From the NCBI RefSeq assembly GCF_008033235.1, contig NZ_CP042432.1, positions 310,001 through 374,000 on the forward strand: DNA of 64,000 nt, read 5' to 3'. Below the pieces are notes generated by a model. That model was given only the letters and a program-made list of their open reading frames with translations, was not told the origin of the DNA and did no database searches. The translations under genes and the position numbers were made by a program. Origin of the DNA: Anseongella ginsenosidimutans. Lineage in GTDB: Bacteria > Bacteroidota > Bacteroidia > Sphingobacteriales > Sphingobacteriaceae. Of the stretch, positions 16,008-59,881 are shown in pieces (positions within the stretch are counted from its first letter, which is position 1; each line of letters starts with the position of its first letter).

Positions 16008-17204
16008 TTATTCCGCCAATTGTCCCCAAACATCCAATTCAGCCATCACCACCTGGCCGGAACTGCCGTAGGTTTCCAGGGTTTTAAAACGCAGATACCT
16101 GTAAGGTGGTTGTCTCTCAATGAACGTGCAATCTTCCCCGTTAGTCCAGCCATATTGCTTGTCCTCATCGTTTTCCTGACCCATGGGTAAGCCGGAAGGC
16201 TTGAAGGATTCAAAGGTCCCCATCAGGGTCCAGCTTTCCCAGCTTCCGTCATTAGCAGGGTTATTCGAACCATAAATTTCCCAGCGCTTGGGCCCGGACC
16301 CTTTGTAAAAGTGACCTCCGGGCTCCGATTGATGGACCACAATGCGGCTGATGGCGGCGCTTACGCCGAGATCTATAGTAAACCATTGCGGCAATATTGA
16401 CGAGTTGGTCGAGGCGAAAATTGTCCCGGCATATCCAACAATATTGTTATTCCATAAGTGATGAAGGTGATAACTTTCCGCAGGCTTCCAGGTATCGGTG
16501 GGCAGATGCACAGCTGCCCATGTGGATTTTGGGATCTCCTGTTCGTAAATTGGCTTCAATACCCTGCTCAGGGTATCTGACTTATTATTCCATCGATCCC
16601 GGACAAAAGCCTGAAACTCTGTTTCCAGCGTATCGAATCCACGCACAGCAAATACTCCTTCCGGTGCAGCCGTATAAAGTGTATATACCGGCTCCATTGT
16701 GCCAGTACCTGCGGTATCTGCCATCAGTACGATTGACAGGTCCGCCTTCGATTCGTTCTCAAAACGAATCTGGACCCCGCCGAATGTTTCCACAACTTCT
16801 AAGGCCTCATAGGTTTCCTTGATCGGCGGTGTAAGTGGCGTAAACGATCTCGTGAGCGGTTCCGACATCTTTTCATTTTTTCCAACGGTAAAAATGCTTA
16901 CCTGATGCGGGTCTGTATTGCCATACCCGACAAGCTTCAGCGTATCGGTATATAGGGACGCTTTGGCTTCGCGTGTAATACCTGGCCGGATGTCATATAT
17001 GGCCTTTACGTAGGCCAGGTTCGGATCGTCCGGAAGGTCATACGTAACAATGGCGCCACCCGGCGTTTCCACGATTTCCACATTGCTCACCTGGGCTGGC
17101 GCCGGCATGCTGTCATCAATATAATCGATCCGCGATTCTTCCTTGCAGCCCGAAAAGACCAGCAGGGAACCGAGGAACACCAGCAAAATTCTATTTATAT
17201 TCAT
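16008..17204 (-). CDS. Surface lipoprotein, DUF4959/DUF5126/DUF5000 type
   Basis: This 398-residue lipoprotein has a signal with lipobox LVFSGC. The order of domains is DUF4959 (APAQVSNVEIVETPGGAIVT), DUF5126 (ALEVVETFGGVQIRFEN) and a discoidin-like DUF5000 at the C-terminus (WFTIDLGVSAAISRIVVHQS, RYLRFKTLETYGSSG). This is the standard companion of SusD in many Bacteroidota loci and likely binds glycan at the cell surface. It lies between the SusD gene (40 bp) and another discoidin lipoprotein (18 bp). Confidence 0.87.
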   Translation of the reverse strand: MNINRILLVFLGSLLVFSGCKEESRIDYIDDSMPAPAQVSNVEIVETPGGAIVTYDLPDDPNLAYVKAIYDIRPGITREAKASLYTDTLKLVGYGNTDPHQVSIFTVGKNEKMSEPLTRSFTPLTPPIKETYEALEVVETFGGVQIRFENESKADLSIVLMADTAGTGTMEPVYTLYTAAPEGVFAVRGFDTLETEFQAFVRDRWNNKSDTLSRVLKPIYEQEIPKSTWAAVHLPTDTWKPAESYHLHHLWNNNIVGYAGTIFASTNSSILPQWFTIDLGVSAAISRIVVHQSEPGGHFYKGSGPKRWEIYGSNNPANDGSWESWTLMGTFESFKPSGLPMGQENDEDKQYGWTNGEDCTFIERQPPYRYLRFKTLETYGSSGQVVMAELDVWGQLAE

Positions 17205-46546: not shown

Positions 46547-47302
46547 CTAAAAGTATTGCCAGTAAGATGCAGCCAGCTCCCTGATCTGCAGATTAGCAGG
46601 ATCAGGACGGCAGCGAATCTGCAGTTGCCCGCCGGTGAGCATATCAATGCAAAGGAGCTGATTGGCAAGCGGGCTTCCAATGCCACAGATCACCTTCAGG
46701 GCTTCCGCCGCCTGGTAGGAACCGATAATGCCCGGTAGTATGCCCAGCACGCCGGTTTCATTGCAACCGGGAACCGCGGCATTCCCGGGAACCTGGGGAA
46801 AGAGGCAACGGTAAGTTGCGCTACCCCTGAAATTACAAACGCTCAGCTGCCCCTCATACTGGAAGACGGCGCCATAAATGAAAGGTTTTCCCAACATCAC
46901 GCAGGCGTCATTGACAAGATATCGTGTGCCTATGTTATCACAGCCGTCAATCACCAGGTCATAACTACCGATGATCTCCAGGGCATTTTCGACCCGGAGA
47001 AAAGCGGCGTGCGGAACAAGTTCAACATCGGGATTTTGCGCCGACAGCTTTGCGATGGCCGCGTACAGCTTTGGCTTTCCCGCATCACGCGTCTCGTAAA
47101 GCACCTGCCGGTGCAGATTGGAAAGCGCCACACGGTCATTCTCGATAATACCAAGGGTCCCCACCCCCATCGCAGTAAGGTACTGCAATACCGGCATACT
47201 GAGCCCGCCGGCGCCAACTACCAATACCCTGGCCTGGCTAAGGGCCTCCTGTTTTTCCCGGCCAAAACCGGTTAACTGCATTTGTCTTTCATATCGTCCC
47301 AT
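46547..47302 (-). CDS. moeB: ThiF/MoeB/HesA-family adenylyltransferase
   Basis: This 251-residue E1-like enzyme adenylates the C-terminal Gly of a sulfur carrier, most likely MoaD here. The ATP site VLVVGAGGLSMPVLQYL, the SNLHRQVLY segment, DGCDNIGTRYLVND and PGCNETGVLGILPGIIGSYQ are clear. The usual zinc site of two CxxC pairs is incomplete: only one Cys remains in TYRCLFP and the C-terminal CPxC pair is missing. It may lack zinc. The start overlaps the end of the upstream methylase gene by 14 bp. ThiF (thiamine) is an alternative, but the context favours MoeB. Confidence 0.85.
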   Translation of the reverse strand: MGRYERQMQLTGFGREKQEALSQARVLVVGAGGLSMPVLQYLTAMGVGTLGIIENDRVALSNLHRQVLYETRDAGKPKLYAAIAKLSAQNPDVELVPHAAFLRVENALEIIGSYDLVIDGCDNIGTRYLVNDACVMLGKPFIYGAVFQYEGQLSVCNFRGSATYRCLFPQVPGNAAVPGCNETGVLGILPGIIGSYQAAEALKVICGIGSPLANQLLCIDMLTGGQLQIRCRPDPANLQIRELAASYWQYF

Positions 47303-47951
47303 AGGATTCCGGTATATTTTGCGTGGCGGAAAGCGACTGCGTGCCGTTTTGCTCTTTTCTCGTCATGATTATCAGATCATCCTCCATTATGGTGAGGGCA
47401 TCTTCTCCTTTTCGCACCTGGCCGATGATTTCCAGCAGCCGTTCTTTATACATGCCGGTATTACGCAGTACCAGCGTGGCAGTAGAAGCAGCCGCCAGCG
47501 CGGTATCGCGAAATAACCGGGAGGGAGAATGCATTTCCTTTATGTCCGCCACCCAAAAACTGTGACTTAGCCCCCGGCGCGTGAGAGGGAAACGCCTCAT
47601 AGCTGCCTGAGCCTGTATACGGCTTACACCGGGAATAATTTCCGTCTCATACCCCGCCATCTCAAAAAATTCCACTTCCTTTAAGAGGCCTTCCGTGGAA
47701 ATTGCATCCCCGGGAGAGATACGTACAAGCTGTACGGAGCTTTTCATACCGGAAAATGAAAAAAACCCGGTCGCCTCCCGCAGATCCTCCGCAATTATGC
47801 AGTTGTGAGGCACAAATTCTTTTAATACTTCTGTCAGAACCGCCTCCCCGATTAACATATCGGCATTCAGGAGTGCATTTACCGCCTTCAAGGGCAGCAG
47901 ATCGGCAGCTCCGGCCGTCATATGGATAAATATCGCCTTCATCGGGGACAA
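47289..47951 (-). CDS. Divergent SUMT/CobA-like tetrapyrrole methylase
   Basis: This 220-residue protein keeps the tetrapyrrole methylase fold. The C-terminal half has EIIPGVSRIQAQAAMRRFPL and RRGLSHSFWVADI, close to the PGITS and LTHRG motifs of uroporphyrinogen-III methyltransferase. The N-terminal GAGPGD loop is degenerate (MTAGAADLLPLKAVNAL). It may supply precorrin-2 for the siroheme of NirB. No dehydrogenase/ferrochelatase partner is visible. The degenerate loop makes the activity uncertain. Confidence 0.65.
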   Translation of the reverse strand: MSPMKAIFIHMTAGAADLLPLKAVNALLNADMLIGEAVLTEVLKEFVPHNCIIAEDLREATGFFSFSGMKSSVQLVRISPGDAISTEGLLKEVEFFEMAGYETEIIPGVSRIQAQAAMRRFPLTRRGLSHSFWVADIKEMHSPSRLFRDTALAAASTATLVLRNTGMYKERLLEIIGQVRKGEDALTIMEDDLIIMTRKEQNGTQSLSATQNIPESYGTI

Positions 47952-47965
47952 ATATCCGTAATATT

Positions 47966-48029
47966 TACGTATTTTTACGTAATATTTCTTTAAAAGATCT
48001 TCAAAATCTAAAATATATACGTAGTTTTG
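47966..48029 (+). promoter_or_regulatory. nirB control region: paired TACGTA boxes and -7 box
   Basis: TACGTA boxes lie at 47966-47971 and 47976-47981, exactly 10 bp apart, with more copies at 48018-48023 and 48051-48056. The -7 box TAGTTTTG (48022-48029) is a perfect match, with TTC (48000-48002) 19 bases upstream. The pair begins 56 and 46 bp before the -7 box, a position typical for an activator. The same layout is found before narK. Confidence 0.6.
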
Positions 48030-48059
48030 CTTGCGGACACAGAAAAATAATACGTAATC

Positions 48060-50555
48060 ATGAAAGTAGTTGTCATAGGGAACGGCATGGTCGGCTATAA
48101 GTTTTGCGAAAAATTACGTAAGAAAGCCGGCGCCGACCAGATCAGTATTACCGTTTATGGAGAAGAACCCCGGCCCGCCTACGACAGGGTTCACCTCAGC
48201 GAGTATTTCAATGGCAAAAGTGCAAAGGATCTTCTGCTGGCCCCGGCGGCCTGGTACGCAGAAAACCAGGTAAAGCTGGTGACCGGCGAGCTGGTGACCG
48301 CCATTGACCGTGGCAGAAAAACAGTTACCACCCATAAAGGAAACATCGCGCAATATGATAAGCTGGTCCTTGCCACCGGCTCTTCCGCCTTTGTGCCCCG
48401 GATAAAAGGCATTGACAAACAAGGCGTATTTGTTTACCGTACTATTGAAGACCTGAACGCCATCCTGGCCTATGGTAAAAAAGTCCACAAGGCAGCGGTA
48501 ATGGGCGGCGGGCTGCTGGGACTGGAAGCGGCGAAAGCCATGCTGGACATGGGCCTGCAAACTGAGGTCGTTGAATTTGCTCCCAGGCTAATGCCTCGTC
48601 AGCTGGATGAGCGGGGCGCGGAACTGCTCCGGCAGCGGCTGGAAGCGCTTTCCATTACGATACATACCAATAAAAATACGGTGGAACTTGCCGGGGACCA
48701 GGCGCTGAGAGGCCTGAAGTTCGCAGACGGCTCCTTTCTTGAGGCGGCCATGCTCGTCATCTCCGCCGGCATCCGCCCTCGTGATGAGCTGGCCCGGAAT
48801 TCGGGTCTTGCCACCGGCGGGCGCGGGGGAATCATTGTTAACGACCAGCTGCTCACCAACGATCCCGATATTTACACAATCGGCGAGGCCGCGCTTCACA
48901 ATAATATGATATACGGCCTGGTAGCCCCGGGCTATGAGATGGCCGAATGCGTTGCCGCCTCCCTTGCCGGACAGGAAAGCAGGACTTTTTCCGGCTTCGA
49001 TATGTCTGCAAAGCTTAAGCTCATAGGAGTGGACGTTGGCAGTTTCGGCGATCCTTCCGGGGAGCAGGTTCCTGCCGTTCCGATCATCTATGAAGATAAA
49101 TCAAAAGGGATCTATAAAAGGATCAATATTTCCGCCGATGGAAAACAACTTTGCGGAGGCATCCTTGTGGGGGATACTACCTCTTATAATATGCTCCTGC
49201 AGATTACCCAGAACGGGCTGCCCTTACCGGCCGACCCTTCCGAACTGATCCTCGGCGCCCGCGGAAAGGAAAATGAAGGCGGAGCCGGTGTCGAATCGCT
49301 CCCGGGGACAGCGCAGATCTGCTCCTGCGAGAATATTTCAAAGGAAGCAATTTGTTCCGCTATTGAGGAGCAGGGCCTGTCCACGCTTGATGAAGTAAAA
49401 AAGGCTACCGGCGCCTGCACGGGCTGCGGGGGATGCACGCCCATGGTAGCCGACTTGCTTAAATACCTCCTGGAAGCACAGGGCAAAACGGTGAAGAAGG
49501 TTGTTTGCGAGCATTTTGATTATTCCCGCCAGGAATTGCTGGACCTGATCCGCGTGAACAGCTTCCGGAGCTATGACCAGTTGCTGGATGCCTGCGGAAA
49601 AGGCGATGGCTGCGAAATATGCAAGCCGGTTGTGGCCTCCCTCCTTTCCAGCGCCTGGAACGTACCGGTTCCCGAACACAGCACTATCCAGGATACCAAT
49701 GACCGTTTCCTCGCGAATATACAGAAAGGCGGCTCCTATTCGGTGGTTCCCCGCATCCCGGCAGGTGAGATCACGCCCCGCCAGCTGATGGTGATTGCCA
49801 GCGTCGCTGAAAAATACGGGCTGTATACCAAGATCACCGGAGGGCAGCGGATTGACCTCTTCGGCGCCAGCCTGGAACAGCTGCCGGCCATCTGGAAAGA
49901 ACTTACCGATGCCGGCTTTGAGAGCGGACATGCCTACGGGAAAGCCCTGCGCACGGTAAAAAGCTGCGTGGGCTCCACCTGGTGCCGCTATGGCGTACAG
50001 GACTCCGTCAGCTTTGCCGTCGAAATTGAACAACGCTATAAGGGAATCCGCGCCCCGCATAAACTAAAAAGCGCCGTTTCGGGCTGCATCCGCGAATGCG
50101 CCGAGGCGCAGTCAAAGGATTTCGGCATTATCGCCACGGAAAAAGGTTGGAACCTGTACGTATGCGGCAACGGCGGATCCCGCCCGCAGCATGCAAAACT
50201 GCTGGTTACCGACGCCGGCAAAGAAAGCTGCATCCGCTACATTGACCGTTTCCTGATGTTTTACATTAAAACCGCCGACCCGCTTACCCGTACTGCTGCC
50301 TGGCTGAACAAGCTGGAAGGCGGTATCGATTACCTGAAGGACGTCATTGTCAATGATTCGCTGGGAATCGGCGCCCAGCTGGAAAAAGAAATACAGGAAT
50401 TGATCGACAGCTATCATTGCGAATGGAAAAAAGTGGTGGACAGCCCCGCCCTGCAGGCCGGCTTCCGGCATTTTCTGAACAGCGGGGAAACGGACCCTGC
50501 CATGCAATTCACTGAAATGCGGGGACAGAAAGTGCCCCTGGACTGGGAAAAATAA
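48060..50555 (+). CDS. nirB: NirB, assimilatory NAD(P)H-nitrite reductase large subunit
   Basis: This 831-residue enzyme reduces nitrite to ammonium in the cytoplasm with FAD, [2Fe-2S], [4Fe-4S] and siroheme. In order: FAD/NAD domain (VVIGNGMVGYKFCEKL, VLATGSSAFVPR, GGGLLGLEAAKAMLDMG); BFD-type Fe-S domain (CSCENISKEAIC, GACTGCGGCTPMV); a second Cys-rich segment (GKGDGCEICKPVV); the ferredoxin-like half; and the siroheme/Fe4S4 ligands CVGSTWC plus CIREC. All ligands are present. It is followed 11 bp later by nirD. Confidence 0.95.
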   Translation: MKVVVIGNGMVGYKFCEKLRKKAGADQISITVYGEEPRPAYDRVHLSEYFNGKSAKDLLLAPAAWYAENQVKLVTGELVTAIDRGRKTVTTHKGNIAQYDKLVLATGSSAFVPRIKGIDKQGVFVYRTIEDLNAILAYGKKVHKAAVMGGGLLGLEAAKAMLDMGLQTEVVEFAPRLMPRQLDERGAELLRQRLEALSITIHTNKNTVELAGDQALRGLKFADGSFLEAAMLVISAGIRPRDELARNSGLATGGRGGIIVNDQLLTNDPDIYTIGEAALHNNMIYGLVAPGYEMAECVAASLAGQESRTFSGFDMSAKLKLIGVDVGSFGDPSGEQVPAVPIIYEDKSKGIYKRINISADGKQLCGGILVGDTTSYNMLLQITQNGLPLPADPSELILGARGKENEGGAGVESLPGTAQICSCENISKEAICSAIEEQGLSTLDEVKKATGACTGCGGCTPMVADLLKYLLEAQGKTVKKVVCEHFDYSRQELLDLIRVNSFRSYDQLLDACGKGDGCEICKPVVASLLSSAWNVPVPEHSTIQDTNDRFLANIQKGGSYSVVPRIPAGEITPRQLMVIASVAEKYGLYTKITGGQRIDLFGASLEQLPAIWKELTDAGFESGHAYGKALRTVKSCVGSTWCRYGVQDSVSFAVEIEQRYKGIRAPHKLKSAVSGCIRECAEAQSKDFGIIATEKGWNLYVCGNGGSRPQHAKLLVTDAGKESCIRYIDRFLMFYIKTADPLTRTAAWLNKLEGGIDYLKDVIVNDSLGIGAQLEKEIQELIDSYHCEWKKVVDSPALQAGFRHFLNSGETDPAMQFTEMRGQKVPLDWEK

Positions 50556-50566
50556 AAACGAAAAAT

Positions 50567-50944
50567 ATGCAGATCTTACTGAAAGAACACACCCCCCGCG
50601 ACATTTCCGAAGTCCGGACCTGGTTCCGGGCGGCTCCCGCGGAACATTTTCCGGAGAACGGCGGCGCCTGTATCAAATACAAGGATCTCCAGATCGCGGT
50701 ATTTAACTTTTCCCGGAGAAACGAATGGTACGCCTGCCAGAACCTTTGCCCTCATAAAAAGCAGATGATCCTCGCAAGGGGAATGATCGGCTCGCAGGGC
50801 GAAGAGCCTAAGGTAGCCTGCCCCTTCCACAAAAAAGCCTTTTCCCTGCGTTCCGGCGAGTGCCTGAGCGGAGACGACTGTGCCATTGCTACTTTCCCGG
50901 TAAAAGTGGAAGAAGGGCATGTGTACATCGGGTTTGGCAGCTAA
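50567..50944 (+). CDS. nirD: NirD, nitrite reductase small subunit (Rieske type)
   Basis: This 125-residue Rieske-like subunit has the cluster ligands LCPHKK and ACPFHKKAFSL, so the [2Fe-2S] site seems intact, unlike many NirD proteins that have lost it. It works with NirB. It is the second gene of the nirBD block. Confidence 0.92.
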   Translation: MQILLKEHTPRDISEVRTWFRAAPAEHFPENGGACIKYKDLQIAVFNFSRRNEWYACQNLCPHKKQMILARGMIGSQGEEPKVACPFHKKAFSLRSGECLSGDDCAIATFPVKVEEGHVYIGFGS

Positions 50945-50961
50945 AGCTTATATTCGCATTT

Positions 50962-52787
50962 GTGAAGACAAGCCGTTTTGCCCGGTTAGGGACCTGGTAT
51001 CTTCTTGCCCTGGGTACGATTGCCCTGATGATCATCGCAGGCCTCGTGCTGATACAACAGTACCTCAGCAGCCAGCTTAATGATTCCGGAAGGGTTAATA
51101 TCGCCGGACGGCAGCGGATGTTGTGTCAGCAGATCGCGAAAAATGCCGCATTGCTTGAAAACCGCCCGGGAAACGCGGAACGCACCCGGGTGCTGGATGA
51201 GCTGGCAACGGCCGTGGAAGACTTCCGGGACTCCCGGGAAAAACTCACAGGACACGATGACAGCCTGGGAGCCCCGCGCGAAGCCAGCCCCCGCCTTGCG
51301 GAACTTTACCGGGCGAACGGCCAGCATTACCGGCTCATGCTGCAAGGCGGGCTGGACCTGCTCAGGCAACTCCGGCAGGATAGTGCAGCGCCATATGATT
51401 CCCTTGCATCGCCCATTCGGCTGATACAGGAGCAGGAAGCCGCATTTCTTGAGGGCATGGACCAGATCGTTCAGCAATACGACCTGGAAGCCCGGCAAAA
51501 AGTGAAAAGGCTAAAAAGGGCCGTTTTTATTCTCCTGGGCGTTTCCCTCCTGCTCATTTTCCTGGAAACCGTTTTTGTTTTCCTGCCCAGCGCAAGGGAA
51601 GTAAACAAGACCCTTGGCAAATCAATGGCTTCTGAAAAAAACGCCCGGAAAATGGCCAAGGAGATTGGCGCGCTTTATTCTTCGCTCGAGCGGTCCTATG
51701 AAAAAATCTCGCATATTAATGTTCCCGTGGACAACCCAAAGCTTTATGCCAAAGCGGACCGGGGAGGAAATATCACTTACGTAAGCGAAACCTTCAGCCG
51801 TCTTACAGGCCGGAAAAAACAGGCTGGAAACTTCTCCGTTGCCGGCCTGCTCGGACTTGAAAAACAACCCGGCGACTTCATGGATGAACTCATAGACACC
51901 GTTAGCGAAGGAAAAACCTGGCAGGATGAAATACACCTGGAAGAAGCAGCGGGGCAGGGAAATGGCTTCGAATAAGCATCGTGCCCATTTTCGATGAAAC
52001 CGGAACGGTGCATGAAATGCTGATCCTTGGCTCGGACCTGACGCGCCAGCGGCTGGCCGAACAGGGAATGCAGAAAAAAGACCGGGCGGCCATAGAACGC
52101 CGCATTAATGAGCAAAAATTTCGTTCGGTTCTTATCCTGGAAGGACAGGAAGAAGAACGAAAACGCATTGCCATGAACATTCATGACGGCATCGGCCAGC
52201 TGATCACTTCCCTGAAATACCAGATCGAATCCCTGGACGCCTCCGATCCGGCGGCAGCCAGGGAAAAACAGAAAGAGATCAATAATCTTCTAAAAGAGAT
52301 CATCCGGGAAGTGCGCCGGGTAACCTTTAATCTGAAACCTCCCGTACTAAGCGACTACGGGCTCAGCGCCGGCCTGAAAAACTTCATGCAGGAAGTAAAC
52401 AAACTTACCGAAGCAGAGCTGGAGTTCAGGAACCTGACCGGCTTTGGGCAAAGAATGCCGTCAAAAGTGGAAAACAACATCTTCCGCATTGTCCAGGAAG
52501 CGGTAAATAATGCCATTAAATATTCCGGGTCCAAACATATTCTTGTCAGCCTTTCGCATGATGAAAACCAATTGACCATCACGGTAGAAGACCAGGGTCA
52601 CGGCTTTGACAAAAAATTGCTGGAAACCGAAAAATACCGCATCGAATCAGGACACGGCTTTTTTAACATGTTCGAACGGACCGAATACATCAACGGCAAA
52701 CTGCAAATAGCGACTGAACCGGGAAAGGGGACTATTGTCCGGCTTTTCGTACCTTTAGGCAAATTTGAAGAAATAGCTGATTTATGA
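50962..52787 (+). CDS. NarX-like nitrate sensor histidine kinase, interrupted by a frameshift
   Basis: The first frame from GTG 50962 ends at 51975. The second runs 51981-52787. One extra base in the GGGAAA stretch 51957-51962 joins them (GKWLRISIVPIFDET) into a 608-residue protein. In order: N-terminal helix; periplasmic PilJ/NarX-type sensor with a P-box-like NIAGRQRMLCQQIAKNA; second helix about 190-210; PAS domain (GGNITYVSETFSRLTGRKKQ); HisKA_3 with phospho-acceptor His in EEERKRIAMNIHDGIGQLI; HATPase with VQEAVNNAIKYS and EDQGHGFD. The stop overlaps the regulator start by 4 bp. It likely senses nitrate or nitrite. A TATATTCG -7 box ends six bases before the GTG. Confidence 0.85.
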
Positions 52788-53440
52788 GTAAGATTACGGT
52801 AATCCTTGCCGACGATCATACCCTGGTGCGAAAGGGCATAAAAGCCATGCTGGAATCTGACGAAGAGATAGCGGTGGTTGCTGAAGCCGAAAACGGGCTG
52901 CAGGCGCTTGAAAAATCCCGCGAATTTCATCCTGCCCTGCTCGTGATGGACATCAGAATGCCCCTGATGACCGGTTTGGAGGCTTGCGGACTGCTTCCGG
53001 ATTACGCTCCCGGGACCAAAGTCCTGATTCTTTCCATGCACGATTCTGAAGACTATGTCCTGCAATCGCTGAAGGCCGGCGCATGGGGATACCTTCTCAA
53101 GGATATTGACCGGAACGAGTTCATCAAGGCCCTGAAACAGGTTCATGCAGGGAATAAATACTTTAGCGGAGCCGTATCCAATATCCTGGCCAACCAATTA
53201 CTGAGAACACCGGGAACCGCCCGGGCAGAGGAACCAAAAGAAGACCCTTATGGGCTAACACGGCGCGAGAAAGAGATCCTTCGCCTGGTCATCAACGGCA
53301 ATCAAAACAAGCAGATTGCAGAGTCGCTTGGAAAAAGCGTACGCACCGTGGAAACTCATCGCTTCAACATTATGAAAAAGCTTGGCGTCAACAATGCCGT
53401 AGACATGGTAAATAAAGTAGTAAAAGAACAACTCGTCTAA
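52784..53440 (+). CDS. NarL/FixJ-family response regulator
   Basis: This 218-residue regulator has a receiver domain with ILADDHTLVRKGIKAML, the phosphorylated Asp in LLVMDIRMPLMTG, the conserved Ser/Lys segments, and a C-terminal LuxR-type helix-turn-helix (LTRREKEILRLVINGNQNKQ, IAESLGKSVRTVETHRFNIM). It forms the pair of the overlapping sensor kinase. The TACGTA boxes upstream of nirB and narK are candidate targets. Confidence 0.95.
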   Translation: MSKITVILADDHTLVRKGIKAMLESDEEIAVVAEAENGLQALEKSREFHPALLVMDIRMPLMTGLEACGLLPDYAPGTKVLILSMHDSEDYVLQSLKAGAWGYLLKDIDRNEFIKALKQVHAGNKYFSGAVSNILANQLLRTPGTARAEEPKEDPYGLTRREKEILRLVINGNQNKQIAESLGKSVRTVETHRFNIMKKLGVNNAVDMVNKVVKEQLV

Positions 53441-53444
53441 GAAC

Positions 53445-53517
53445 TACGTATATTTACGTATTTTTTTCAAATAATTCTTCGTAGTTTCCTTCCATTTTAC
53501 GTATAATTGCGTACGTA
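53445..53517 (+). promoter_or_regulatory. narK control region: paired TACGTA boxes
   Basis: TACGTA occurs at 53445-53450 and 53455-53460, exactly 10 bp apart, and again at 53498-53503 and 53512-53517. The best -7 box is TATAATTG (53502-53509, one mismatch). The pair then begins 57 and 47 bp before it, within one base of the distances before nirB. Confidence 0.6.
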
Positions 53518-53528
53518 AAACCGAAGGC

Positions 53529-54869
53529 ATGTATAAAAGCAGCAAGCTCCGTCTCTTTAGCTTTAGTGCGCCCCATATGCGTACGTTTCACCTTACCTGG
53601 ATGGCCTTTTTCCTGTGCTTTTTCGCCTGGTTCGGGATTGCGCCCCTGATGCCGGTGATCAGGGAAGAGCTTAACCTGGACAGGAATCAGGTGGGCAATA
53701 TGCTTATCGCTTCGGTAGCAGCTACCGTTTTCGCCCGCCTGCTCATGGGCTGGCTGTGTGACAGGATTGGCCCCCGGCTGACCTATACGATTCTATTGAT
53801 CGGGGGTTCATTCCCGGTGATGCTCATTGGATTGAGTGATAGTTACGAAACGCTGCTGCTATTCCGCCTGGCCATCGGCGCTATCGGCGCCGCCTTTGTC
53901 ATTACCCAGTTTCATACTTCAGCGATGTTCGCTCCAAACGTCATAGGCGCCGCCAATGCCACCACGGCTGGCTGGGGAAACCTTGGAGGAGGCGTAGCGC
54001 AAATGGTCATGCCGCTTTTATACACGGGGCTGCTGGCGCTCGGGCTTACCGGAAGCAGCGCCTGGCGATGGACCATGGTGGTGCCGGGCCTGGCGCTTTT
54101 TATCATGGGCATTGTCTATTACCGCAGCACACGCGACACACCAGCGGGAAATATGAGGGAGCTGCAAAAAGATATATCCCGGCAGGAAAAGAGGGAACGA
54201 AACAAGGCATTTCTTATCGCGCTCAGGGACCCACGGGTATGGGCCTTATTCCTGATTTATGGCGCATGCTTCGGCGTAGAACTGACAATGAACAACGTGG
54301 CTGCCCTTTATTTCATGGACTATTTTTACCTGGATATGAAAACAGCGGGGCTGATCGCCGGGCTTTTCGGGCTAATGAATCTCTTTGCGCGTTCGCTGGG
54401 AGGACTGCTGGGGGACCGCTTCGGTATGCAATACGGCTTGCAGGGAAGGGTTTATTTTATGTTTGCCGTATTACTGGCCGAAGGGATCAGTCTTATGCTT
54501 TTCTCCAGGATCAGCCTGCTTCCCCTGGCTGTAGCCGGGATGGTATTGTTCAGCCTCTTTGTGCAAATGGCAGAGGGCGCCACCTTTGCCGTGGTGCCTT
54601 TTATTAATAAGAAGGCAACGGGGTCCGTTTCCGGGATTGTGGGGGCAGGCGGTAACGCCGGGGCTGTTGCCGCCGGTTTCCTGTTCAAAAGCGAACAGCT
54701 GTCCTTTCCCACGGCATTGCTCATTATGGGAGCCTGCGTATGCCTCCTTTCTTTTTCGGCGCTTGCTGTGCGCTTTTCTACCGGTATCCAACTCCAGCCC
54801 GTGATCAGCCAGCTTCCGGATTACACGATCAAATCCACTTTTCAAGATGATGAAAGCAAAACCGGTTAA
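53529..54869 (+). CDS. narK: NarK/NasA-type nitrate/nitrite transporter (MFS)
   Basis: This 446-residue major facilitator has about 12 membrane helices. The nitrate signature AGWGNLGGGVAQMVMP lies in helix 5, with FARLLMGWLCDRIGPR and a second nitrate-type segment GSVSGIVGAGGNAGAVAAGF. It imports nitrate for the nitrate reductase encoded immediately downstream. Its end overlaps that start by 23 bp. Confidence 0.95.
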   Translation: MYKSSKLRLFSFSAPHMRTFHLTWMAFFLCFFAWFGIAPLMPVIREELNLDRNQVGNMLIASVAATVFARLLMGWLCDRIGPRLTYTILLIGGSFPVMLIGLSDSYETLLLFRLAIGAIGAAFVITQFHTSAMFAPNVIGAANATTAGWGNLGGGVAQMVMPLLYTGLLALGLTGSSAWRWTMVVPGLALFIMGIVYYRSTRDTPAGNMRELQKDISRQEKRERNKAFLIALRDPRVWALFLIYGACFGVELTMNNVAALYFMDYFYLDMKTAGLIAGLFGLMNLFARSLGGLLGDRFGMQYGLQGRVYFMFAVLLAEGISLMLFSRISLLPLAVAGMVLFSLFVQMAEGATFAVVPFINKKATGSVSGIVGAGGNAGAVAAGFLFKSEQLSFPTALLIMGACVCLLSFSALAVRFSTGIQLQPVISQLPDYTIKSTFQDDESKTG

Positions 54870-57800
54870 TTATAAATCCACTTGTTCCTATTGCGGCGTA
54901 GGCTGTGGAATACTTGTTGAGCAGGACAGGCAGGGCCGGCTCCGGGTGGAAGGCGACAAGGACCACCCCGTTAACCGCGGGATGCTTTGTTCCAAGGGGA
55001 TGAACCTGCATTATGCGATGCAGGATCAGAGCGACCGCCTGTTGTTCCCCCAGATGCGCTGGAGCAAAGGCCACCCCTGGCCAGGGTAAGCTGGGACACC
55101 GCCATGAAAAGGGCGGCAGCGGTTTTTAAAAGCCTTACCGGGAAATACGGGCCGGATTCGGTGGGCTTTTACCTCTCCGGCCAATGCCTTACCGAAGAAT
55201 ATTACCTGGCAAACAAGCTGGTAAAGGGCTTCATCGGTACGAATAACATAGACACCAATTCCAGGTTATGCATGAGTTCGGCGGTAGCCGCGTACACGCA
55301 AACCCTGGGAGAAGATACCGTTCCGGTGGCCTATGAAGACCTTGAGAAAGCGGATTGCTTCCTGGTAGCCGGTGCCAACCCGGCCTGGTGTCATCCGATC
55401 CTTTTCCGAAGATTAGAGAACCATCGCCAGCAGCATCCGGAGGTCCGGCTGATCGTCGTAGACCCCCGGAAAACCCAAACCTGTTCCCAGGCCGACCTTC
55501 ACCTTCAGCTCATTCCCGGAACCGATGTGTACCTGTACCATGCCATTGCGCGGGTACTGATCGAAGAAGGAAACATTGATATTGACTTTATCACACAGCA
55601 TTGTGAAAATTTCGAACAATACCGGCGCCCTGTTTTTGAATATACGGTATCCGAGGCAGCAAGCACCTGCGGGATCGAGGAATCTGATATCCGCCTGGCC
55701 GCTTCCTGGATCGGCAATGCCGCCGGTTTCATCAGTATGTGGGCAATGGGGCTGAACCAAAGTGTGATCGGGGTAAATAAAAACCTCGCTCTTATCAGCC
55801 TCCATCTCCTTACAGGAAAAATAGGGAGAGCGGGCTCCGGCCCGCTCTCCCTGACAGGGCAGCCCAACGCGATGGGCGGGCGGGAAGTCGGGGGCATGGC
55901 CACCCTGCTTCCGGCACATCGCCGGCTGGACAATCCCCTGCACCGGCAGGAAGTAGCGGCCTTCTGGAAGGTCCCCGCGGTACCTGAACGCCCCGGCCTG
56001 GCGGCCACGAAATTATTCGAGGCCCTGGAAAGCGGGGAAGTAAAAGCGGTATGGATCATGTGTACCAATCCCCTGGTGAGCCTGCCCAATGCCAACCAGG
56101 TAGAAGCCGCGCTGAAAAAAGCCCGTTTCGTGGTGGTCCAGGATATCTCGGGGCAAAACCAGGCGATTCCCTACGCTGACCTGGTACTTCCGGCAGCCGG
56201 TCATTTTGAAAAGGAAGGAACCATGACCAATTCAGAACGCAGGATCACTTATCTCAGCAAGGTAACAGCGCCCCCGGGGGAAGCCCTGCCTGACGCGGAG
56301 ATCCTGCTGCGCTTTGCCCGGGCCATGGGATTCAAAGGTTTTGGCCAAAAGAACATGGCCGAAGTTTTTGCCGAACACGCCGCACTCACCCGCCATACGA
56401 ACATCGACATCAGCGGGCTGAGTTATAAAAGGCTTCAGGAAGAAGGGAGCATGCAGTGGCCTGTTCCCCATCCGCAGCACACAGGCACCTCACGCCTCTT
56501 TGAAAACGCCCGGTTCTTTACGGAGAGCGGGAAAGCCCGTTTCCAACCTGTTCAGCCCCTGAACCTTTCGGAACAGACGAGCCCCTCGCTTCCGCTGATC
56601 CTGACCACCGGCCGCATTCGGGACCAGTGGCATACCATGACGAAAACCGGGAAGGTAAACAAGCTGAAACAACATATTTCCAAACCTTTTGCGGAGATCC
56701 ATCCGGATGATGCCGCTGCCAGGGATATCCGGGAAGGCGACGTGGTAGTCGTGGAAAACACCCGGGGGCAGGTAAGAACGCGGGCCGTGCTTACCGCCGC
56801 CATCCGGAAAGGCGTGGTGTTCATGCCCATGCATTGGGGAAAGCTGCTCGGTCAAAACTTTAGCCGGACCAATAACCTCACCAGCAGCCTCACCGACCCG
56901 GTTTCCAAGGAACCGGACTATAAGTTTTCCGCAGTGCAGGTGAAGAAATACGTAAAACCGCGGGAAAGGCTCATCGTAGTCGGGGCCGGCGCCGCCGCCT
57001 ACCGGTTTATCAATACCTACCGGGAACTGAACCGGGAAGATGAAATTTTTGTATTCTCCAGGGAGAAATATCCTTTTTACAACCGGGTGCTGCTTCCCGA
57101 ATACGTCAGCGATCACTTAGCCTGGGAAAATCTCCTGAAATTCAAAAAAGGGGAATTTGAGAAACTGGACGTGCAGCTTTATACGGAAAACAAGGTGGTT
57201 TCCATTAACCGGGAAAGAAAGACCGTCACCGACCAGCTTGGAGAAACACATTCTTATGATAAACTGGTCCTGGCCACCGGGAGCAGCGCTTTTGTCCCCA
57301 GGGACGTTCCGCTGCATTTGCCTGGCGTATTCAGCATGCGCAGCCGGGAAAATGCCGACCAGCTGAAAACCCGGCTGCACAAGGATGCGCATGTACTGAT
57401 CGTAGGCGGGGGCCTGCTTGGCCTGGAACTGGCGGCTTCGCTCCGTGAAACCGGCATTCAGGTAAGTATTGTCCAGTTAAGCGGGCGGCTGATGGAACGA
57501 CAGCTGGATTCTCTGGCCAGCGGGATGCTGCAGGATTTCGTGGAAGAAAAATGGATCAGGGTATTTACCCATGACCAGGTACAGTCCATTGAACCCGTGG
57601 CCGGCGGGGCTCCGGACAGCGGAGGGCCTGGAGGCTTGCTCACAGCCAGGCTGAAGAGCGGGCGCAAGCTTGCCTGCGATGCCATTGTCTTTGCTATCGG
57701 GACCCGGCCTAACATGGAACTGGCTACTGCCTGCGGATTAGAAACCGGCCGGGGAATCATGGTGAACGACTACCTGCAAACCAGCGATCCCGATATTCTT

Positions 57801-58388
57801 GCCATGGGCGAGATTGCCGAACACCGGGGGAAGCTGAACGGGATCACCGCGGCCGCCGAACAACAAGCCGATATTGCCGCGCGCTACCTGAACGGAGACC
57901 TGCTGAGTTATTACGAAGGAACCCTTTCTATGAACATTCTTAAATTCTCTGATTTCGACCTCTGTTCCCTGGGTATCCCGGAAATTCCCTCCGGAGGGGA
58001 AGGCTACGAGGAAATCCTCTTCATTGACAAATCACAGCGCTACTACAAAAAATGTATTATTAAGGACGACCGCCTGGAAGGGGCTATCCTGATGGGGGAC
58101 AAATCCGAATTTGCAGAATTTAAATCGCTGATTGAAAGCAAGCTGGAACTTTCGGAAAAGCGGAAAGAATTGCTTCGTTCCGGGAAGGCTGCGGCGCCGG
58201 TGAAGGGAAAACTGGTTTGCTCCTGCAATAACGTGGGCAGGGGAAACCTGGAAGAACTCATTTCCGGCGGATGCGAGAACTTTGCCGAGCTTTGCCGCGT
58301 GTCCGGAGCGGGATTGGGCTGCGGAAGCTGCAAGCCGGAAGTAAAGGAAATACTCGCGGATTGCACAGCTTCCGGCGTTTTGACTTAA
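54847..58388 (+). CDS. Assimilatory nitrate reductase fused to NirB-like FAD and BFD Fe-S modules, frameshift near the start
   Basis: ATG 54847 starts with the Fe4S4 motif STCSYCGVGCG and NRGMLCSKGMNLHY, but this frame stops at 55089. The rest follows in another frame. One extra C in the C4 run 55074-55077 joins them (KGHPLARVSWDTA), giving about 1180 residues. In order: Mo-bisPGD catalytic region (SRLCMSSAVAAYTQTLGEDT, GANPAWCHPILFRRLE, VWIMCTNPLVSLPNA, the cofactor-contact LILTTGRIRDQWHTMTKTGK); from about residue 705 a FAD/NAD(P)-binding module (LIVVGAGAAAYRF, VLATGSSAFVPRD); and at the end a BFD-type cluster (LVCSCNNVGRGNLEELIS, GLGCGSCKPEVKEILADC). The FAD module replaces the separate electron-transfer subunit of NasB/NasC systems. 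Confidence 0.9.
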
Positions 58389-58411: not shown

Positions 58412-59881
58412 ATGGACATCGAGGCCACAAAAGCAGCAAAAAACGACCTTATCAGGGTATTCGTCCGGGGAGGGATCCTTTCTCCCGGCGATCTGCTGCG
58501 CATCATGGAAATATCGGAGACGCTGGGGAACGATTTCGTGATGTTCGGGTCAAGGCAGGATATTTTATTTCCTCTTAACGGAAGGTCCTCGGCCGAAGCC
58601 GCAGATCTTTTCCGCGATACAGGGATTGATTACGAATGGGGCTTCCGGGAGGCTTTCCAGAATATTGCAAGCAGCTATGTGGCGGTAAATATTACTGCAA
58701 GCACGCAATGGGTAAAGGAAGACACCTACCATTATGTCATCGAAAACTTCGATTACCTTCCCAGGCTGAAGATCAATATCGTGGATCCGCTGCAGAGCAT
58801 GGTGCCGCTTTTTACCGGCCATTTGAACTTTATTGCCTCCCGGCAGGAAAATTACTGGTATCTCTGCATCCGCAACCATCACAGCGGCAATATTCCGGAG
58901 ACCTGGCCTAAGCTGATTTTCAGCCAGGATATTGCCAAAGTAGCGAAATTCATTGAGAAAAAGCTGTTGCAGACGCCGGAGCTGACAATAGACGACCTTT
59001 TCCTGGAAGTTCAGAATACCATGCGGGTAAACAGCCTGAAACCGGAAGAAAAACTAAAGCTCCCACCCAACCTCTTCCCCTATTACGAAGGCCTGAATGC
59101 CCTCAGCAATAATCTGTTGTGGCTGGGTTTATACTGGCGGAACAATAAGTTTGACATTGACTTCCTGCGGGCTGCTTGCCGGCTTTGCCAGGAGACCAAT
59201 ATCGGAACCATCAGCATCACACCTTGGAAGTCCTTTATTATCAAAGGAATAAAACCGTCCGACCAGCTTCGCTGGGAAAAGCTGATGGGAAAGTTCGGGA
59301 TCAATATGCGGCATTCTTCCCTGGAACTCAACTGGCATCTGCCGGTCCTGGACCAGGAAGCCCTGGACCTCAAACGCTTCCTGGTAAGAGAGCTGGACCA
59401 GCAGGATATCAGCACCCACGGGCTGACGTTCACGATTAAAACGGAAGGCGAACTATTACTTTTTACCAGTATTGTCATTGAAAAGGACCAGGAGGTCGTC
59501 GCCGGCCCGGACAGCCATTATACGATCCGTTATGCGAAAGACTTCAATCCCCACCTGCCCGAATATTATACCTATGCCCGGGGAGTGGTCAAAGAGGTAT
59601 TGCCGGCCTTGCTGATAGAACTAAGCAAAATATACTTCAGGCAGCTGAATCCTGAAAAAGACCTGCCGGCGGGCCAAAGCGACAGCAGGGAGGAACCGCC
59701 TGCCGATCCCGCGGACCTTTGCTATCAATGCAGCAACTGCCTGACAATCTATGATAAAAAAATCGGGGATCCGGCTGCCGGAATTGCCGCAGGAATGCCT
59801 TTCGAAAAACTTCCCGACCACTACCGCTGCCATGTCTGCGACAGCGGAAAGGAGCATTTCAAGCCGGTCAGGAGTTTTTAG
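58412..59881 (+). CDS. Rubredoxin-domain protein with a siroheme-reductase-like N-terminus
   Basis: This 489-residue protein has a C-terminal rubredoxin (about 435-485): CSNC and CHVC ligands around the usual loop (GMPFEKLPDHYRCHVCDSGK). The N-terminal about 420 residues recall the repeated ferredoxin-like halves of nitrite/sulfite reductases (SYVAVNITASTQWV, LRAACRLCQETNIGTISITP), but the Cx5C/Cx3C siroheme-cluster ligands are missing. It is the last gene of the block, 23 bp after the nitrate reductase. It may shuttle electrons between pyridine nucleotide modules and the reductase. The N-terminal relationship is a weak visual impression. Confidence 0.7.
   Translation: MDIEATKAAKNDLIRVFVRGGILSPGDLLRIMEISETLGNDFVMFGSRQDILFPLNGRSSAEAADLFRDTGIDYEWGFREAFQNIASSYVAVNITASTQWVKEDTYHYVIENFDYLPRLKINIVDPLQSMVPLFTGHLNFIASRQENYWYLCIRNHHSGNIPETWPKLIFSQDIAKVAKFIEKKLLQTPELTIDDLFLEVQNTMRVNSLKPEEKLKLPPNLFPYYEGLNALSNNLLWLGLYWRNNKFDIDFLRAACRLCQETNIGTISITPWKSFIIKGIKPSDQLRWEKLMGKFGINMRHSSLELNWHLPVLDQEALDLKRFLVRELDQQDISTHGLTFTIKTEGELLLFTSIVIEKDQEVVAGPDSHYTIRYAKDFNPHLPEYYTYARGVVKEVLPALLIELSKIYFRQLNPEKDLPAGQSDSREEPPADPADLCYQCSNCLTIYDKKIGDPAAGIAAGMPFEKLPDHYRCHVCDSGKEHFKPVRSF

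Follow-up and report, generated by a model that had tools for sequence, protein, structure and literature searches.

A conserved 16-bp inverted repeat as the probable operator of a NarX/NarL-type nitrate system in Bacteroidota

Two familiar regulators offer points of comparison for the system described here, namely NarL of Escherichia coli, whose heptamer consensus is TACYYMT, and ModE, which controls molybdate transport. As outlined in PMC7419079, a NarL site consists of 7-base elements that are inverted with 2 bp between them. In Bacteroidetes, nitrate/nitrite sensor kinases were catalogued in 2021 (PMC8199190), and the account of the sensors given there describes proteins encoded near nitrate genes that lack HAMP or GAF-like domains and sometimes contain PAS, without naming an operator, DNA motif or regulon. 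We likewise found no operator or regulon for the Bacteroidetes nitrate kinases, nor the motif itself, in the open-licence literature. Here, we describe a candidate for such an operator, a dyad of TACGTA-like half-sites, in a 64,000-nucleotide stretch of the Anseongella ginsenosidimutans genome (contig NZ_CP042432.1, positions 310,001 to 374,000; hereafter the window), where it lies upstream of both the nitrite reductase gene nirB and the nitrate/nitrite transporter gene narK. From sequence comparison, the dyad very probably serves a Bacteroidota NarX/NarL-type system as its operator, bound by the response regulator encoded at 52784-53440 and co-ordinating nitrate use with molybdate supply.

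The arrangement resembles the E. coli NarX-NarL and NarQ-NarP pairs, as far as these are outlined in the source above, in that a NarX-type kinase adjoins a NarL-family regulator, and it resembles the E. coli NarL operator treated in PMC7419079 in its 16-bp dyad, present at least once per promoter, and in having nirB among its targets. It differs in the half-site, which in Bacteroidota is TA(C/A)GTAW rather than TACYYMT, and in its setting, with Bacteroidota promoters, an assimilation-type gene set and molybdate genes among the targets, while in two kinase orthologs PAS replaces the HAMP and GAF-like domains of E. coli NarX. As under ModE control, molybdate transport genes are among those that bear the dyad (modAB here, and ModE-like genes in several flavobacteria); unlike ModE control, the site upstream of them is one proposed for a nitrate regulator, which would place molybdate supply under the control of nitrate.

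The 108-bp gap between the cobA-like tetrapyrrole methylase gene and nirB and the 88-bp gap between the regulator gene and narK each contain four copies of TACGTA, starting at 47966, 47976, 48018 and 48051 and at 53445, 53455, 53498 and 53512, respectively, in agreement with the four per region counted in the initial annotation of this DNA. Its measurements were reproduced from the sequence: the first two copies in either gap are spaced 10 bp apart and start 56 and 46 bp (nirB) or 57 and 47 bp (narK) before the -7 box, and the regulator gene (52784..53440) is located between the two targets. Bacteroidota promoters have the -7 consensus TAnnTTTG, which the putative nirB box TAGTTTTG (48022-48029) matches and the putative narK box TATAATTG (53502-53509) matches with one mismatch. 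Upstream of nirB, and also of the divergent tetrapyrrole methylase gene, the first pair constitutes the dyad TACGTATTTTTACGTA (47966..47981), an exact copy of the pattern TAMGTAWWWWTACKTA, in which the spacer is A/T; the third TACGTA is a half-site fused to TAGTTTTG on the forward strand (48018..48029) and the fourth (48051..48056) sits immediately 5' of the start codon. Upstream of narK, the dyad TACGTATATTTACGTA (53445..53460) is followed by a second one with one mismatch, TACGTATAATTGCGTA (53498..53513), that overlaps the putative -7 box, and by the fourth TACGTA at 53512..53517.

These paired boxes exceed chance. The window holds 19 copies of TACGTA against 4.87 expected, a number reached in none of 100 shuffles. 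When the two gaps were dinucleotide-shuffled 5000 times each, the copy number averaged 0.20 and 0.23 and never reached four, and a TACGTA dyad arose in 0.02% of cases for either gap. In the 4.32 Mb genome, a single contig, TACGTANNNNTACGTA (TACGTA-N4-TACGTA) occurs twice, at the nirB and narK promoters only, and the reversed pattern not at all. The third and last exact copy of TAMGTAWWWWTACKTA lies outside the window (C1:1,831,583-1,831,598), with 28 bp between its end and the start of modA, the first gene of a modA-modB molybdate transporter whose two genes both pass curated NCBIfam cut-offs; as nitrate reductase requires the molybdenum cofactor, the three genomic sites form one coherent set. 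Allowing one mismatch across the genome gave seven matches versus five for the reversed control, so close to the control that we retained nothing beyond the exact copies except the second narK dyad. The three remaining one-mismatch sites, 5' of an ftsZ-like gene (L187), next to a BlaI-like gene (L189) and within a thrS-like open reading frame (ORF; L190), look like chance.

The boxes had been interpreted as a pair one helical turn apart, a geometry that we correct from a 10-bp direct repeat to an inverted one. TACGTA is its own reverse complement, such that direct and inverted repeats are indistinguishable within the window, but in relatives the left half-site can be TAAGTA and the right one TACTTA, and it is this variation that gives the inverted reading. 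In 28 regulator-positive genomes, the unambiguously inverted form TAAGTA-W4-TACTTA is found in 38 copies and the direct form TAAGTA-W4-TAAGTA in nine, none of which lies within 40 kb of the regulator, as judged by position. Across 13 nirB promoters, chosen by gene and thus our preferred test of spacing, 14 half-site pairs have a spacing of 4, all of them inverted or palindromic, and every other spacing from 0 to 12 has three pairs at most; a further test gave 35 dyads at spacing 4 versus 0.015 in shuffles, with promoters partly picked by the motif. We thus favour reading the boxes as a single 16-bp inverted repeat, TA(C/A)GTA-N4-TAC(G/T)TA, or, in the 7-2-7 layout of the NarL operator (an inverted pair of 7-base elements with 2 bp between them), TA(C/A)GTAW-NN-WTAC(G/T)TA. 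The likeness to NarL is weaker in the heptamer itself: the single-position difference from TACYYMT suggested at the outset holds for TACGTAT, but the partner half TACGTAA differs at two positions, so that the nirB and narK halves have one and two mismatches, and the TAAGTA variants have three.

The dyad was linked to the regulator by comparing genomes with and without the latter. With an ortholog defined by an E value of 1e-60 or better, the regulator is present in 5 of 399 genomes of the family, which include Olivibacter domesticus and Parapedobacter pyrenivorans, and nirB in 167, both counts being taken as drawn from the same 399 genomes. Among the best 30 of the 167 nirB loci, a dyad lies within 400 bp of nirB in all five regulator-positive genomes (in exact form in four, with one mismatch in the fifth) and in none of the 25 regulator-negative ones, even with one mismatch allowed (Fisher p 7e-6, ignoring relatedness). 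Most of the regulator-negative nirB promoters are AT-richer, and two further regulator-negative genomes, from genera with positives, also lack a nirB dyad, bringing the negatives to 0/27. A scan of named genomes gave at least 80 regulator loci, from which 10 Bacteroidota loci with 46-72% identity were used, from two Chryseolinea, Catalimonadaceae JC749, Cyclobacterium, Flammeovirga, Maribacter, Algibacter and Tenacibaculum, plus Olivibacter and Parapedobacter; a locus with a 37% identical regulator (L086) was also scanned and has no dyad. In the resulting set of 13 regulator-positive genomes (five from the family and eight others, about 81 Mb), every nirB promoter has the dyad, 12 of them in exact form. 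Conservation in relatives had been named beforehand as a check on the idea that the boxes are sites for a LuxR-type regulator, and the contrast of 13/13 with 0/27 argues for that idea.

Within these 13 genomes, TAMGTAWWWWTACKTA occurs in 40 copies, compared with 10 for the reversed control, and by ORF reading 37 of the 40 are at nitrate or molybdenum genes. The dyad-bearing genes comprise nirB/cobA, narK, nasA, moeA, the kinase gene, a gene for an NMT1_2-type binding protein that we read as NrtA, a Crp/Fnr-like gene, a globin gene located among these, an alginate-export-like porin gene (see below) and modAB, and some relatives have dyads 5' of the gene for the kinase or the regulator. Of the other 12 regulator-positive genomes, eight retain the order nirB-nirD-kinase-regulator.

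The pattern was then fixed before being applied to a phylum-wide sample, in which 16 of 395 genomes, including that of A. ginsenosidimutans, are regulator-positive, leaving 15 new ones. In 14 of these TAMGTAWWWWTACKTA is present; it totals 75 copies, the reversed control 13, and 51 of the 75 lie within 40 kb of the regulator, although 12 of the 15 belong to one genus and hence are not independent. Of the 24 off-cluster sites, 20 were read, the remaining four being in one contig (G575 C53). Five lie before a ModE-like gene, one of these adjoining modB-modC-like genes, two before moeA and three before narK, with one each before a Crp/Fnr-like gene, before glnB-amtB-like genes and beside a probable nitrate transporter (L264). 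Most of these names come from ORF reading, and the ModE, ModC and P-II matches that were tested fall below the NCBIfam cut-offs.

The proteins themselves are consistent with a nitrate-responsive pair. The first fragment of the kinase contains the PilJ sensor domain (PF13675, E 3.5e-9), found also in two scanned orthologs, and its motif VNIAGRQRML fits the nitrate-binding G-x-x-R of the P-box, for which PMC8199190 gives the consensus A-I-N-x-A-G-S-L-R-M. No HAMP or GAF match was obtained in the two orthologs at E values up to 0.001, weak PAS matches being seen instead, and the window kinase and its orthologs fit the Bacteroidetes class as that source describes it. For the regulator, the best PDB match of a five-sequence profile is E. 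coli NarL (E 2.5e-44), and nine positions (R187, T188, E190, H192, R193, F194, N195, M197 and K199) are invariant in 28 orthologs, with a paralog at 4.05 Mb of the same genome deviating at H192, F194, N195 and M197.

Several observations weigh against the dyad as the operator of this NarL-type regulator. One regulator-positive genome of the phylum sample (G599) has no copy of TAMGTAWWWWTACKTA, and in P. pyrenivorans (G100), also regulator-positive, none is exact, the nirB dyads there having one mismatch. Three of the 40 sites in the 13-genome set do not show a connection to nitrate or molybdenum (G425 C14:82289, G425 C90:208038 and G428 C80:98188), and nor do at least seven of the 20 off-cluster sites read, four of which precede sdhC-like genes and three of which are unclear (L261, L266 and L267). 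Two loci (L083 and L085) have no kinase match near the regulator. A paralog in G019 retains all nine recognition-helix residues, so the helix fits the idea of dyad binding and is no proof of it; its NarX-like pair (L070), 40% identical, was rejected as a candidate, lying in a cluster without nitrate gene matches or dyads. Of 151 family genomes, 36 contain the bare TACGTANNNNTACGTA, which by itself proves nothing, because 27 of 29 such loci from other family genomes match neither the nitrate genes of the window nor its sensor kinase. Finally, two genes of the locus are broken in the assembly. The kinase reading frame is interrupted between about 51948 and 51975, where the P. pyrenivorans ortholog is a single 618-residue ORF, and that of the nasA-like gene near 55074-55077, leaving its N-terminal iron-sulfur part in a different frame. 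Either sequencing errors or real lesions could account for these frameshifts; if real, the nitrate circuit would be damaged in this strain with its operators intact.

In the mechanism that we propose, the NarX-like membrane kinase would sense nitrate (or nitrite) through its PilJ-type domain and phosphorylate the regulator, a dimer of which would bind the dyads and co-ordinate nirBD and the tetrapyrrole methylase gene, narK-nasA, and modAB. At nirB and narK, where the main dyad starts 56-57 bp before the -7 box, activation would come from the distal dyads; E. coli NarL can activate from centres at -67.5 and -77.5, according to the part of PMC7419079 that deals with it. In several flavobacteria, and at modA in this genome, the dyad coincides with the -7 region or comes shortly after it, and the sign of control may differ among promoters. 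The fused form TACKTAnnTTTG, which had been spotted before it was counted, is present in 5 of 32 promoters, compared with 0.22 expected at any one offset.

Of the alternatives, the one that survives best accepts the NarL-type regulator and has it respond to something other than nitrate or nitrite, such as redox state or molybdate. The sites at modAB and ModE-like genes would also suit a molybdenum response, and the scanned kinase orthologs contain PAS domains, yet the PilJ domain with its G-x-x-R nitrate motif and the centring of the target genes on nitrate use make this unlikely. A shade less likely still is that the dyad belongs to another conserved regulator and that the response regulator acts elsewhere. 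Crp/Fnr-like proteins were the alternative compared: such a gene, at times preceded by a dyad, belongs to the nitrate clusters in Algibacter, Maribacter and Tenacibaculum and in Flammeovirga adjoins narK, but a homolog is absent (E up to 1e-10) from two dyad-bearing genomes, A. ginsenosidimutans and G115, close homologs exist in four genomes with seven others having only 22-32% identical ones, and Crp/Fnr sites are unlike the dyad. That the boxes are functionless TACGTA repeats of AT-rich intergenic DNA, for which the sporadic dyads of family genomes might speak, is very improbable given that shuffles of the window and gaps rarely or never reproduce them, that the mostly AT-richer regulator-negative nirB promoters lack the dyad and that the same genes bear it across many genera.

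Returning to the regulator as the dyad-binding protein, a wider picture can be drawn, which we offer tentatively and regard as possible rather than probable. Bacteroidota would possess a nitrate-molybdenum regulon of their own, in which a NarX/NarL-related pair, through a distinct 7-2-7 operator, governs nirBD, narK, nasA, a nitrate-type ATP-binding cassette transporter, cobA, moeA, modAB or ModE-like genes and, in some cases, glnB-amtB. As a half-site is often built into the -7 element, the same protein would activate distally and gate transcription at the -7 box. A rare, conserved operator tied to one regulator would make the nitrate regulon predictable from sequence in soil, marine and freshwater Bacteroidota, would link molybdate supply to nitrate control, and could yield a nitrate-inducible promoter for the phylum.

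The locus itself runs from the tetrapyrrole methylase gene, on the reverse strand (47289..47951; Pfam TP_methylase), through a series of forward-strand genes. Across the shared control region lie nirB, for the nitrite reductase large subunit (48060..50555; NIR_SIR, NIR_SIR_ferr, Fer2_BFD and Pyr_redox_2), and nirD, for the Rieske-type small subunit (50567..50944; Rieske_2). The NarX-like kinase gene follows in two frames, with an inferred start codon (50962..52787; its first fragment encodes PilJ and its second HisKA_3 and HATPase_c), then the regulator gene, with Response_reg and GerE domains, and narK, named from its gene context (53529..54869; MFS_1). The nasA-like nitrate reductase gene, fused to a Pyr_redox module and likewise with an inferred start codon (54847..58388; Molybdopterin, Molydop_binding and Pyr_redox_2), precedes that for a rubredoxin protein with a nitrite/sulfite-reductase ferredoxin-like half domain (58412..59881; also from Pfam). 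By ORF reading, moaA- and moeA-like genes lie close by.

A few observations stand beside these results. An alginate-export-like outer-membrane protein gene with an upstream dyad adjoins narK, the NrtA-type gene or the regulator gene at three loci (L050:1531-2790, L207:2048-3343 and L208:644-1921), the assignment resting on Pfam for L208 only, and its product is possibly a nitrate or nitrite porin. In Flammeovirga, an aconitase-like gene is preceded by two dyads (L210:2039-2064) that are 10 bp apart and of which the second has a spacer base other than A/T. The sites at sdhC-like genes are dyads with TACGTA halves in four genomes of one genus (L249 1295, L250 1269, L252 1316 and L253 1322). Two family loci with the bare pattern, one between a sigma-factor-like and another gene (L033, G019) and one at the start of an era-like gene (L034, G001), were rejected as sites. 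The window also holds TACGTA at 17007 and 17041, 34 bp apart and away from the nitrate genes.

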